Part shown: one piece after another, positions 13,728-21,217 of the stretch
Layout of the letters: each line of letters begins with the position of its first letter
Position numbering within the stretch: position 1 is the first letter of the stretch
Assembly (NCBI GenBank): GCA_024642065.1
Contig: JAHEBW010000046.1
Location: 97,152-161,151 of the forward strand
Reading direction: 5' to 3'
Source: Polynucleobacter sp.
GTDB taxonomy: Bacteria > Pseudomonadota > Gammaproteobacteria > Burkholderiales > Burkholderiaceae
DNA: 64,000 bases
The notes under the pieces: model-generated
Seen by the model: only the letters and a program-made list of their open reading frames with translations
Database searches by the model: none
Told to the model about the DNA's origin: nothing
Program-made: the position numbers and the translations under genes

Positions 13728-14423
13728 TCAGCTTGGATCGATCTTTTTAGGCCTCCCAGCCTTTCTAGGGATCAAGGGGCGAGTTGTTTTAGGGGCTATT
13801 TTAGCTAGCAATTCAGGTGAGGCTAGTGGCCAACCATAATTTAAGTGGTTACTCACTTTTTCGAAATCACCTATAGATATTTGCTCAGAAACTGCCTTTT
13901 GCCAGGCTAACTGACGTTCAAATGGTGTGTTCCCCAAACTCCAATACTTCGAATGATCAGAAATCCAGGGCACTACCTCTGCCCCCACATGATGACGATA
14001 AGTCGACCAAGACCAATCATCAGGGTTTTGCACCAAGCCGGATCGCACGGGATCTTGCTCAATATATTTTTGGCATAACAGTAAGTACATCTCGGGATCG
14101 ATCAAGGCTGACTTAAATCGACCTTCCCATACTGTGCCAGTTCTTTTGTGTTTTTGATTAAACATTTGTGCGTAGCGGCGACCAACTGACTGCATGGTTC
14201 TTGTTGCACTTAAGTAAGTTTTGGGTGTGGCCAAAATATGAACATAGCTTGGCATCAGAACATAAGCATGAATGGCTAACTCATATTCTCTAGCGGCATC
14301 TCGCAACCACTCTAAATAAGAGCGCCTCTCGTCATCAGAAAGAAAAATTTCTTGTGAGTTATTACCTCGCACCATGATGTGCAGAGGATATCCAGCCAAA
14401 ATAACTCGTGGAAGCCTTGCCAT
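13728..14423 (-). mobile_element. IS200/REP-associated tyrosine transposase (RAYT/Y1_Tnp)-like gene
   Basis: 231 aa; family-typical IMVRGNN, AIHAYVLMPSYVHILATP, GTVWEGRFKSALI, KYIEQDPVRSGLV; C-terminal KAGRPKK. Confidence 0.88.
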
Positions 14424-15543: not shown

Positions 15544-16626
15544 TTATGCAGCCCCTGTTGCGCTAAGTGTCTGCGTCACTAAAGCCTCGTCTACTGGCTT
15601 AATAACTGAGTGGCCAATACCGTCCAACAAGATGTATCGGATTTCACCACCTTCGGCTTTTTTATCAACTCTCATTAAATCCATATAGCGAGTCACTCCA
15701 AATTGCGGAGGAACTGTTGGCAACTTCAAGGCAGCAATCAGGGCTTTAATTCTTTGTGATTCAGCTTCAGACAAATGGCCCAGACGAGCAGATAAGTCAG
15801 CTGCCATCACCATGCCACAACCAACAGCCTCACCATGTAACCATTCTCCATAACCCATGCCTGCCTCAATGGCATGGCCAAAAGTATGGCCAAAATTGAG
15901 GATGGCTCGCACACCACCTTCTTTTTCATCAAGGGCAACTACTTGAGATTTAATTTCACAAGAACGTTGAACTGCATGCTCCATTGCTTTTGGGTCGCAT
16001 GTATTCAAAGCATCAATATTTTTTTCAATCCAAGAGAAAAAGTCGCCATCAGCAATAGCACCGTGCTTAATCACTTCAGCCAAACCGGCAGCCAACTCTT
16101 TAGGTGGCAATGTCTTTAAAGTATCTAAATCGGCAATAACGGCTTGAGGCTGATAAAAAGCCCCCACCATATTTTTTCCTAAAGGATGATTGATGCCTGT
16201 TTTTCCACCAACGGATGAATCAACTTGCGATAGCAAAGTAGTCGGCACTTGTATAAAGCGAATACCTCTCATATAGCAGGCAGCTGCAAACCCAGTCATG
16301 TCGCCAATAACACCGCCTCCTAGAGCCACTAATGTACTTTTTCGATCTGCACCGCTCTCTAATAAAGCGTCAAATATCTTTTGTAGGGTTTCCCAAGTTT
16401 TATAAACTTCCCCGTCAGGCAAAACAACTAAACGAACTTTTTGCCCAAGACTCTCGAGAGTCTTAACAACACGATCAGCATAAAGAGGCGCAACAGTTTC
16501 GTTGGTGACAACGGCAGTAAAAGTTCCTTTTAAATGCTTTTTGTAAAGCTCGGGGCGATCAATTAATTGAGCTCCAATATGGATTGGATAGCTGCGCTCA
16601 CGAAGATCAAGTTCAAGTGTTTTCAT
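15544..16626 (-). CDS. aroB: 3-dehydroquinate synthase
   Basis: [59 protein letters not shown]. Confidence 0.98.
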
Positions 16627-17147
16627 TTTGACAATTCAAATTGCATCATTAATGTATTAACCAGCTGCGAAACACTGGGCTTTCCTGTGTCAACTGTGTG
16701 ATGCGCAGCTTCACGGTATAGAGGATCTCGAACTTCATAAAGCTTTTCTAGGGTTGCTCTAGCATCCCCATTATTTAATAAAGGACGCCCCTTATCATTT
16801 CTTGTTCGCAACCATAGCTCATGTGGGTTAGCTCTTAAATAAAAGACAACGCCGCGGTCATGCAAGTTCGCTCGATTCTCTGGAGATAAAACTGCTCCGC
16901 CCCCAGTGGCCAACACCAAGTTTTTTTCTTGAGTTAACTCATCAATGACCTGCGCTTCACGCTTTCTAAAACCAGGCTCCCCTTCCATCTCAAAGATAGT
17001 AGGGATCTTGACACCGCAGCGCGCCTCTATTTCATGATCAGTATCAATAAAACGACGCCCTAATCTCTTAGCCAAGAGCCGACCTACGGTAGTTTTACCC
17101 GCACCCATTAGGCCTACTAAGAAGATATTGTCTGGAATCGTATTCAC
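16623..17147 (-). CDS. aroK: shikimate kinase
   Basis: [33 protein letters not shown]. Confidence 0.97.
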
Positions 17148-17157
17148 AAGTGAGATT

Positions 17158-18255
17158 CTACTGAGCCTTTTGCTTAGAAACCAATGTTGGCGTTAAAAAA
17201 ATTAATAGCTCCGTCTTATCAACCGTTTTTGACTCCTGGCGGAATAAAGCGCCTAAAAATGGTATTTCACTAAAAAATGGCGTCTTAGCCTTATCTTTTC
17301 GCTCCATATCCTGAAAAATTCCGCCCAAAATAACTGTACCCCCGCTTTCAACTGAGACTTGAGTCTTCACGTGCTTGGTATCAATCGCGAAACCCTGCTC
17401 TGTTTTGAGACCCACACTATCTTTATTAATATCGACATCTAAGACAATCATTTCATTTTTCTGAATCCGTGGACGAACCTCTAAACGTAAGTTGGCTTTT
17501 CTAAATTGCACCTTTGTGGCGCCTTGTCCCGCCGAAGACTGATAGGGCAACTCTGTACCCTGCTCAATTAAGGCTTGAGTGTTATCTGCAGCCAATACCC
17601 TTGGGTTCGAAATGATATTTCCCTGACCACTTGCCTCTAATGCAGATAATTCAATTTGTAATGCCTGCCCAGCCTGCTTGCCCAACAAACCAATCGCGGC
17701 AACACCTGGCTCAAAGCCATGCAAGCCACCAGCAGTTAATGTATTAGTTCCCGAAATCTGACCTGATCTAGATTGATAAGCCAACTTGGTTCCTAAGTTT
17801 TTCGCAAACCTTCTTTCGGCTTCAACAATTCGAGCCTCAATCATGACCTGTCTTAATTCTGTTTGAATTTGATTAACCTGATTCAGCTGTTGAGCTCTCT
17901 CTAACTGTCTTTTTTCAAATGCCACAATTTCTTCATGAGGCGCGACCCAAAGTACATCTGCATCATATTTATGCCCCAAAGATCGGCTAGCCAAAACAGA
18001 ATCAAATACGGCTTGCCATGAAGCTTTTTTCATATGGATGCTGACTTGCCCGGAAACCTTTTCGCTTAACATCAAATTAATGCCTTTTGTGTCCGCAAGG
18101 ATCTGCAATAGCTGTCGAATATCTATTGACGTAAAACTCATACTCAAAGGCTCTTGCCTCACTTTGTCGTTTGCAATTGCAATCGCCTTGTTAGGGGCAC
18201 ACAAAAGCATGGCGCTCCACAAAAAGTATTTAAAAGAATCTCGTCTACCGATCAT
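17158..18255 (-). CDS. compact PilQ-like secretin (STN-like region plus secretin core)
   Basis: 365 aa; [35 protein letters not shown] (STN-like), [67 protein letters not shown]; lies next to aroK. Confidence 0.85.
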
Positions 18256-18257
18256 GC

Positions 18258-18770
18258 TTAAGGCCTCTCTCTAAATGCTTTAATAAGCTGACCAGATTTT
18301 GATTCAAGCAATAAGTATTGCTCGTTAAGCTCTTTAATACGCCAACCCAATTTCAGAACCTGACCGGGAATGACAAGCATTTGCTCTCCATCTAACTCAA
18401 TCAAAGCCTTAGATAAATGATTCAATTGAATGTGCCCTAAATAAAGAATTGAAAGCTGCGTTTCTGGCAATGCCTCATTTTGTAATTCGGCATGAACTGA
18501 CTGACTCAGCAACTGTGTTTTTAATTCCTGAATTTCGCTGATACGAGCCCTGTCATTTTTGACAAGTAATTCAGCTTGGGCGGCTTGCTCAAAAATTAAA
18601 TACATCAGTACAAAGACAAGTCCAATGGTGAGAACTAAATGGATTGGCACTGAGTAAATATTTAAGAACTTATCAAGAGGAGCAAAGTCAACTTGAGCAG
18701 TTGAGTTAATGCTTTTTTGCTCGACAGAAACTGCATCAAATGCTTCGGAAGTAAGGGATCTTTTAAACAT
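18258..18770 (-). CDS. small single-TM protein with PilO/PilP-like layout, cotranscribed with secretin
   Basis: 170 aa: N-terminal TM (IHLVLTIGLVFVLMYLIFEQ), coiled-coil-like region, C-terminal beta-rich (LVIPGQVLKLGWRIKELNEQYLLLES); 2-nt gap to secretin ORF. Confidence 0.6.
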   Translation of the reverse strand: MFKRSLTSEAFDAVSVEQKSINSTAQVDFAPLDKFLNIYSVPIHLVLTIGLVFVLMYLIFEQAAQAELLVKNDRARISEIQELKTQLLSQSVHAELQNEALPETQLSILYLGHIQLNHLSKALIELDGEQMLVIPGQVLKLGWRIKELNEQYLLLESKSGQLIKAFRERP

Positions 18771-18865: not shown

Positions 18866-18907
18866 TATTTTTAAGCCTAATTGCTAAGCTATCTCTATAA
18901 TCAAACC

Positions 18908-21217
18908 ATGAGCTCATCACGCACCCCTGTTCGCCCACCATCACGTCTTGGCGGTGGAAGACAACCTAGAAATTCTCAACGAGACTGGCGCCAGTACATG
19001 ATTCGATGGGGAATTTTTCTTGGGAGTGCGGGCCTTATCTTAATAGGCTTGGTCATTGCTTATGCACTGATTATTGCCAAACCAAACTTACCTGATTTAG
19101 ATACCATCACAGACTACAAACCTAAGGTACCACTTAGGATCTACACAGCCGACAATGCGTTGATCGGTGAGTTTGGTGAAGAGCGTCGCAGTGTTATGTC
19201 AATTCAAGAAATGCCCGCCTATTTAAAAAATGCGGTGGTGGCTATTGAAGATGAGCGCTTTTATGAACACGGCGGCGTTGATTATTGGGGAGTGCTCAGA
19301 GCTACTCTTGCCAATTTGCGCGGCAGACTATCGCAAGGTGCTTCAACAATCACAATGCAGGTAGCTAGAAACTTTTTCTTAACAAATGAAAAGTCATTTA
19401 GCAGAAAAATTTATGAGGTACTGCTTGCTTGGAAAATTGAAGCCAACTTACCTAAAGAAAAAATTCTTGAGCTTTACATGAACCAAATCTATCTTGGTCA
19501 AAGAGCTTATGGTTTTGCTAGTGCTGCTCAGATTTACTTTGGCAAAGACATTCGTGAAATATCGATTGCTGAAGCTGCAATGCTTGCTGGTTTACCTAAG
19601 GCACCATCAGCATATAACCCAGTCGTGAATTACCGCCGAGCAAAAATCAGACAAGAATACATTTTGCAAAGAATGCGTGATCTAAAAATGATTACGCAAA
19701 GTCAATATGAATCGGGCTTGCAAGAAACGTTACATGTTCGAGGTGTGGGCAAAGAGTTCTTAACAAAGGCTGACTACGCCGCAGAAATGGCTCGCCAATT
19801 ATTAATTAGCGAATATGGCGACAGTATTTACACACAAGGTATGACTGTCATCACAACGATTCGTAAGTCTGAACAGGATGCCGCCTACTCTGCAGTTCGT
19901 AAAGGCATTATGGATTACGAACTACGTCACAAGTACCGTGGTCCAGAAGGCTATATCAATCTTCCAGAAGGTTCTGTAGAAAAGCAACGCGCCATTGATG
20001 ATGCTTTGAGTGATCACCCAAGTAGCGATGATTTGTTAGCTGGTGTTGTCACTGAAGTGAATTCCAAAGAAATTAAAGTGGTCATCGCAACAGGTGACAC
20101 CATCAGCATCAAAGGTGATGACCTCAAACTAGGAAGCATTGCTCTATCAGAAAAAGCTCAGCCTAAACAACAAATCAAGCCAGGCGCAATTATTCGAGTG
20201 CTTCCTTCAGATGGTCGCTGGGTACTTGCTCAGATGCCGCAAGTTGAAGCAGCATTTGTTGCACTAGATACGCATGATGGCGGCATTCGGGCTTTAGTTG
20301 GAGGCTTTGATCACAATAGAAATAAGTTTAATCACGTATCCCAAGCTCAACGTCAGCCAGGCTCTTCATTTAAACCATTTGTTTATGCAGCCGCCATTGA
20401 AAAAGGCATCATGCCCAACACGATTGTTAATGATGCTCCTCTATCAATTAGCGGCTTAGAAACTGGCGGCCAAATGTGGGAGCCAAAAAACTATGATGGC
20501 AAATTCGAAGGTCAAATCCGTCTTCGTACTGCTTTAGCAAAATCAAAGAACTTAGTCTCCGTTCGTGTCATTCGCAAAATTGGCGCACGTTACGCTCAAG
20601 ACTACATTCAGCGCTTTGGCTTTGAACCTGAAAAGCATCCTCCTTATCTAACCATGGCTTTAGGTGCAGGCTCTGTAACACCTTTGCAACTAGCTACTGG
20701 TTATGGTGTGTTTGCAAATGGCGGCTACCGTGTTGAGCCTTATTTGATTAGCAAAGTGCTCGATGCAAAGGGCAATGTTCTTTTCGAGGCAACGCCTCAA
20801 AAGTCTGGTGACAGCCAACTTAAAGTTTTAGATTCCAGAACCGCTTTTGTTATGGATAGTCTTTTACAAGAAGTGACAAAAACCGGAACAGCTGCATCAG
20901 CAAGACCAGCTTTAGGACGTAGCGATATTGCAGGCAAAACAGGTACAACCAATGAATCTATGGATGCATGGTTTGCCGGTTACCATCCTAATATTGTTGC
21001 AGTAGCATGGATTGGCTTTGATAAACCAAAGAGTTTGGGTGATAGAGAAACCGGTGGTGGCTTAGCGCTACCCATGTGGACGCGCTACATGAAAACTGCC
21101 CTAAGTGGAATGCCTGAGAGTCCAAGGACACCTCCTGCCGGTGTTTCACAACAAGATGGTGACTGGGTTATTCCAGAATTCGTACCATTTTTAGGCAGAA
21201 CTACTGTTCTTGAATAA
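18908..21217 (+). CDS. mrcA: penicillin-binding protein 1A
   Basis: Transglycosylase EDERFYEHGGVDYWG and GASTITMQVARNFFL; transpeptidase PGSSFKPF; start taken at MSSSRTP rather than ORF-track start 18881. Confidence 0.95.
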   Translation: MSSSRTPVRPPSRLGGGRQPRNSQRDWRQYMIRWGIFLGSAGLILIGLVIAYALIIAKPNLPDLDTITDYKPKVPLRIYTADNALIGEFGEERRSVMSIQEMPAYLKNAVVAIEDERFYEHGGVDYWGVLRATLANLRGRLSQGASTITMQVARNFFLTNEKSFSRKIYEVLLAWKIEANLPKEKILELYMNQIYLGQRAYGFASAAQIYFGKDIREISIAEAAMLAGLPKAPSAYNPVVNYRRAKIRQEYILQRMRDLKMITQSQYESGLQETLHVRGVGKEFLTKADYAAEMARQLLISEYGDSIYTQGMTVITTIRKSEQDAAYSAVRKGIMDYELRHKYRGPEGYINLPEGSVEKQRAIDDALSDHPSSDDLLAGVVTEVNSKEIKVVIATGDTISIKGDDLKLGSIALSEKAQPKQQIKPGAIIRVLPSDGRWVLAQMPQVEAAFVALDTHDGGIRALVGGFDHNRNKFNHVSQAQRQPGSSFKPFVYAAAIEKGIMPNTIVNDAPLSISGLETGGQMWEPKNYDGKFEGQIRLRTALAKSKNLVSVRVIRKIGARYAQDYIQRFGFEPEKHPPYLTMALGAGSVTPLQLATGYGVFANGGYRVEPYLISKVLDAKGNVLFEATPQKSGDSQLKVLDSRTAFVMDSLLQEVTKTGTAASARPALGRSDIAGKTGTTNESMDAWFAGYHPNIVAVAWIGFDKPKSLGDRETGGGLALPMWTRYMKTALSGMPESPRTPPAGVSQQDGDWVIPEFVPFLGRTTVLE

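Follow-up and report, generated by a model that had tools for sequence, protein, structure and literature searches.

The periplasmic ring domain beside the barrel is regarded as contributing to the oligomerisation of secretins and to holding their vestibule, and the locus described here raises the question of whether a secretin lacking such a domain is a damaged gene or a working one, and what machinery it would serve. The locus lies in a stretch of 64,000 nucleotides (the window) from a Polynucleobacter genome of 1.67 Mb that is 99.6% complete and encodes a single secretin. A previous inspection, made without database searches (the sequence-only reading), had claimed that a 365-aa open reading frame passes from an STN-like segment through a short linker into an intact secretin core, and that N1 and AMIN domains appear to be missing. 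The frame is real and lies on the minus strand, which that inspection had left unstated; along the protein a signal peptide is followed by N0, a helical linker of approximately 28 residues and an intact core:

17158 to 18255, minus strand: N1-less PilQ-type secretin, 365 aa (Pfam Secretin E 5e-45; TIGR02515 306 bits; without Secretin_N)
17941 to 18153, minus strand: N0 (STN) domain, residues 35–105 (weak Pfam PF21305/PF07660; AlphaFold pLDDT about 82–89; Foldseek 4ar0)
17857 to 17940, minus strand: helical linker, residues 106–133, leading directly into the core, the site of the missing N1 (alignment with 10 relatives, spacer length, predicted helix)
17179 to 17856, minus strand: secretin core, residues 134–359 (Pfam Secretin, PF00263, at 205–359; Pfam and phmmer against solved PilQ)

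The core motifs quoted in the sequence-only reading are intact, and the progression from STN through a short linker to the core is confirmed by Pfam, alignment and spacer length. The N0/STN matches are weak by sequence (residues 40–105, Pfam), while by fold the domain is clear, the best Foldseek match being N0 of Neisseria meningitidis PilQ (4ar0, E 4e-7). AlphaFold (5 sequences) folded the core poorly, and predicted a helix following N0. Against the NCBIfam PilQ model TIGR02515 the score exceeds the cut-off of 284 bits. No Pfam match to Secretin_N (N1) or to AMIN was obtained in the protein at E values up to 10.

The distribution of this architecture was surveyed in 186 Polynucleobacter genomes, species representatives only, and the N1-less form was sought within the Burkholderiaceae. 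A pilQ match was found in 180 of the 186; among the 150 matches listed, frames ran from 320 to 424 aa and one contained an internal stop; further deep-branching species have intact frames of 354–379 aa. About 160 of the 186 species have the N1-less form with its reading frame open, whereas the matches listed in the family outside the genus fall in frames of 449–965 aa, starting at the core. Secretin_N does occur in 45 Polynucleobacter genomes, where the places listed are other secretins; these matches were rejected as a pilQ N1 because they sit in long GspD-like or approximately 525-aa MSHA-like secretins. For pilQ dN/dS is about 0.02–0.10 in nearly all unsaturated pairs, somewhat higher than for aroK and far below neutrality. 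A tree of AroB and AroK distributes the N1-less form across every major clade of the genus, and a single loss of N1 before Polynucleobacter radiated would thus be the simplest account. The chance that the gene is a pseudogene, an assembly error or a fragment of a normal PilQ is practically nil, as nothing in the host genome favours it, fragmented copies being confined to five small complete genomes elsewhere, while the shared open frame, the low dN/dS, the alignment and N1 profile described below and the presence of only one secretin in the host genome all stand against it. The single secretin also disposes of a second full-length PilQ elsewhere in the genome, and together with the recurrence of the short form in sister genomes it leaves no room for a frameshift concealing a full-length PilQ, the objection that the sequence-only reading had itself raised. 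Its proposal of a domain-level reduction and not a decayed pseudogene emerges stronger than it was put, since the reduced form spans the genus, has been passed on vertically and is maintained by purifying selection. In the five genomes with pilQ in fragments (G031, G032, G033, G035 and G051; L089–L093), which are complete at 1.6–1.9 Mb, the bacteria are possibly host-restricted.

The absence of N1, the domain that is named N3 in PMC7545093, is borne out by several independent comparisons. The same Pfam library detects Secretin_N in two family relatives (L063, E 3e-12; L065, E 3e-11), and all the other PilQ proteins of the family that were read (L063–L073) have N1. An N1 HMM built from 10 relatives gave no more than 0.6 bits on 63 Polynucleobacter PilQ proteins (62 plus that of the window), whereas the relative L068, kept out of the model, scored 125.9 bits and a HofQ-like protein from Proteus 26.8 bits. 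The spacer between N0 and core measures 21–28 residues in 37 proteins as against 89–110 in three relatives. When aligned by phmmer with solved structures, residues 34–139 match P. aeruginosa PilQ chain positions 281–386 and residues 110–169 match positions 424–482, so that the N1 stretch is skipped; alignment with 10 relatives shows a block removed cleanly, from about ‘..SRLFELNYQRAEEVRKLL’ to ‘..LKAIDRP’, where the N1 of the relatives occupies 60–80 residues. N1 is short and variable, and an N1 too divergent for detection might be imagined, yet this is very improbable, since the spacer could not accommodate a domain that takes up some 65 residues and the profile returns noise here while detecting the gammaproteobacterial HofQ-like protein. 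The much shorter vestibule that the sequence-only reading envisaged for such a secretin is a fair inference. Its claim about AMIN holds in that Pfam, which finds AMIN in L063, finds none here, but the lack is unremarkable: none is found in a relative of 449 aa either, others of 448–479 aa are too short to hold AMIN, and the domain is optional, being absent from 27 of the 197 secretins in a published survey (PMC7545093).

The genes on either side of the secretin indicate where it came from and what it may work with:

16623 to 17147, minus strand: aroK (shikimate kinase), the next gene downstream, whose conserved position identifies the ancestral pilMNOPQ-aroKB locus (translation; gene order in relatives)
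18258 to 18770, minus strand: unannotated partner, 170 aa, with inner-membrane helix, coiled coil and PilP/GspC-HR-like domain (AlphaFold, Foldseek, hhalign)
18585 to 18650, minus strand: hydrophobic transmembrane stretch of the partner, residues 41–62, VPIHLVLTIGLVFVLMYLIFEQ, within a predicted helix
18270 to 18449, minus strand: PilP/GspC-HR-like domain of the partner, residues 108–167 (AlphaFold, Foldseek, hhalign, PDB profile search)
18881 to 21217, plus strand: divergent class A penicillin-binding protein gene (mrcA/ponA), between which and pilQ relatives carry pilM-pilN-pilO-pilP (translation)

In relatives a divergent ponA is followed by pilM-pilN-pilO-pilP-pilQ-aroK-aroB, whereas in Polynucleobacter one gene of 170–270 aa replaces pilM to pilP, and it overlaps or abuts pilQ throughout the genus, in most cases overlapping it by four bases. 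The 170-aa product has no Pfam or NCBIfam match. AlphaFold predicts a long helix (residues 32–95) and a six-stranded domain (108–167) with pLDDT 82–88, and the best Foldseek matches, modest (E 0.004–0.04) and mutually consistent, are the HR domain of GspC (3oss) and PilP (2ivw, 2lc4, 3jc8 and 2y4y). A profile of 37 partners identifies the same domain in Burkholderiaceae PilP (hhalign probability 90.8) and, when run against the PDB, picks out the PilP entries 2ivw and 4av2 amid coiled-coil noise. By its HR-like fold and profile match the partner is a putative PilP, but Pfam does not recognise it and its anchor is different. By NMR, PilP binds N0 of PilQ and not N1, and its fold resembles that of the GspC HR domain (PMC3441751); a docking pair of this kind would survive the loss of N1, and the upstream protein, which the sequence-only reading had passed over, is likely to be the docking partner of the secretin. 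Elsewhere in the window (13728 to 14423, minus strand) lies a gene resembling Y1_Tnp (IS200/REP-associated) transposases; a Y1_Tnp gene of 183–232 aa is found near gltB in several clades (also at L002, L004, L074 and L080), a pattern suggestive of a domesticated RAYT retained by vertical descent.

The parallel reduction extends to the whole pilus machine, another aspect that had been missed. No PilO match occurs in any of the 186 Polynucleobacter genomes, a result that is supportive only, since the control was weak (3 of 14). True PilM and PilN were found across the 186 genomes only within fused proteins of approximately 560 aa that belong to another, MSHA-like system; PilM matches at E of about 1e-4 were taken, from size and position, as FtsA/MreB-type actin-fold proteins. 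About a dozen species (G050, G070, G082, G108 and others) carry this extra system, in which the fused PilM-PilN protein is encoded beside the approximately 525-aa secretin. A reduced pilB-pilC-pilD set lies between a CorC-like gene and coaE: PilB has 381 aa and is matched by its model only from position 174, PilC has 334 aa and is matched by the HofC model from position 60, and the prepilin peptidase PilD has about 150 aa. The major pilin, encoded elsewhere, is a full-length type IVa protein with PF00114 and the only one of these four parts that is not shortened. No separate retraction ATPase PilT was found in several complete genomes, which hold a single T2SSE protein (best ten candidates per genome scored). 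ComEC, of approximately 830 aa, was found in 161 of the 186 genomes; its linkage to pilQ is loose, since some species have lost pilQ alone and others ComEC alone (in G066 and G095 pilQ is present and ComEC has no match). A run of T interrupts the PilD frame of the host genome (L043, 10815–11260, C35), and reading continues in another frame, while relatives have an intact gene for a peptidase of approximately 150 aa; the interruption may be genuine, may mark a phase-variable tract or may stem from misassembly.

On balance we favour the view that the protein is a functional PilQ-type secretin and that its N1 disappeared in a single event preceding the radiation of the genus, in the course of a miniaturisation of the type IVa pilus machine. 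The best reading of the system as a whole is a miniaturised portal for a type IVa, presumably competence, pilus. The core would form the outer-membrane gate, assembling into its ring without N1, and N0, carried on its short helix, would bind the inner-membrane protein encoded upstream through the PilP/GspC-HR-like domain of the latter. The helix and coiled coil of that protein may stand in for PilM, PilN, PilO and lipoprotein PilP in linking the two membranes. With PilB as ATPase, PilC as platform and PilD as peptidase, all three shortened, the pilin filament would be built through the gate, and in most species ComEC would carry DNA taken up in this way across the inner membrane. With its four proteins PilMNOP replaced by one and its short PilB, PilC and PilD, the system may be the smallest of all type IVa pilus machines, and a genus under selection without N1 provides a natural minimal secretin in which the role of that domain becomes directly testable.

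A pilus of this kind might serve adhesion or surface attachment instead of DNA uptake, as the full-length type IVa pilin and the persistence of pilQ in some species without ComEC would allow. We consider this improbable given the retention of ComEC in the large majority of the genomes; moreover the lack of PilM, PilN and PilO, and of a separate PilT in the genomes checked, makes twitching unlikely.

A more serious alternative is a stand-alone envelope channel, made up of the N1-less secretin and the partner with the HR domain, which would serve mainly for DNA entry to ComEC or for export and would need no pilus for this. It draws on six members of the genus (G123, G164, G177, G145, G166 and G180; loci L074, L076, L077, L078 and L079 with L108, L110 and L111) that form one nested clade (support 0.994). 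At the CorC-coaE locus of this clade pilB and pilC are missing, pilD being kept in G123 and G164 and not in G177; no pilin match was obtained in G123, G145, G164, G166 or G180, nor any T2SSF match anywhere in G123, G145, G166 or G180, and G177 has a separate T2SS-like set. The secretin–partner pair is nonetheless intact in five of the six, all five with full-length ComEC. In G123, G177 and G164 dN/dS of the secretin is 0.04–0.05 (dS 0.8–1.7), equal to that of aroK, and for the partner gene in the clade it is 0.15–0.27. Retention of the secretin without the pilB/pilC pair (G123, G164, G177, G145 and G166) fits poorly with a purely pilus role, and the strong purifying selection makes a pilus-independent role possible. 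Set against this, pilus genes persist in the rest of the genus, the secretin is shortened in G180, and selection could look alike if each lineage had lost PilB and PilC only recently. The clade points either to a pilus-free role of the channel or to parts that escaped detection. As an account of the whole genus we regard the stand-alone channel as rather unlikely, and the miniaturised pilus portal is preferred; slightly less doubtful is the narrower proposal that in at least one clade a two-protein channel, comprising a secretin of N0 plus barrel with no ring-building domain and its HR-anchored partner, may work free of a pilus, probably with ComEC for DNA uptake. Having a conserved secretin but lacking the genes for a pilus motor, the clade sets the function of the secretin apart from that of the filament. 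As a separate observation, G123 and G164 keep pilD without detectable prepilins, and the G123 secretin scores 249 against TIGR02515, below the cut-off.

A literature search, with subscription papers outside its scope, turned up no description of a PilQ lacking N1, nor any of pili or competence in Polynucleobacter, and comparison with known systems places the locus as follows. The competence secretins HofQ/ComE (NF010083) are likewise small, without AMIN and tied to DNA uptake genes. However, the Proteus HofQ-like protein has N1 where the Polynucleobacter secretin has none, and the latter scores 203 bits against a HofQ cut-off of 554. This Proteus protein (L006, 368 aa) was rejected as a second short secretin of the same type, since it has N1 and is without most of N0. 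The partner shares the topology of GspC of the type II secretion system (3oss, 6hcg; PF11356), namely a cytoplasmic tail, one transmembrane helix, a coiled coil and an HR-like domain, but its profile matches PilP, the T2SSC/GspC model being matched by one of 37 partners and below cut-off; no Secretin_N-bearing GspD accompanies it, Secretin_N occurring nowhere in the host genome (G000). With PilP (2ivw, 2lc4, 2y4y) it shares the HR-like beta domain by fold and profile, while showing no lipobox and being anchored by a transmembrane helix and coiled coil in place of a lipid plus PilN/PilO. Among 197 type IVa secretins the dominant architecture is AMIN(0–3)-N0-Secretin_N-secretin, and the accessible text of that survey describes no N1-less form (PMC7545093). 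In VcPilQ, according to the same text, a helix of 32 angstroms connects N0 with the ring domain after it (PMC7545093); the Polynucleobacter secretin has a predicted helix at the same place, but it runs straight into the core. Relative to PilQ in general (TIGR02515; 6ve2, 9x0w, 6w6m, 4av2), the core, N0 with its following helix and the aroK-aroB locus are the same, whereas Secretin_N, AMIN, PilM, PilN and PilO are gone and PilP appears recast as a transmembrane protein. The secretin is filed, accordingly, not as an ordinary PilQ but as a PilQ-derived variant that departs from the family in one defining feature, N1.
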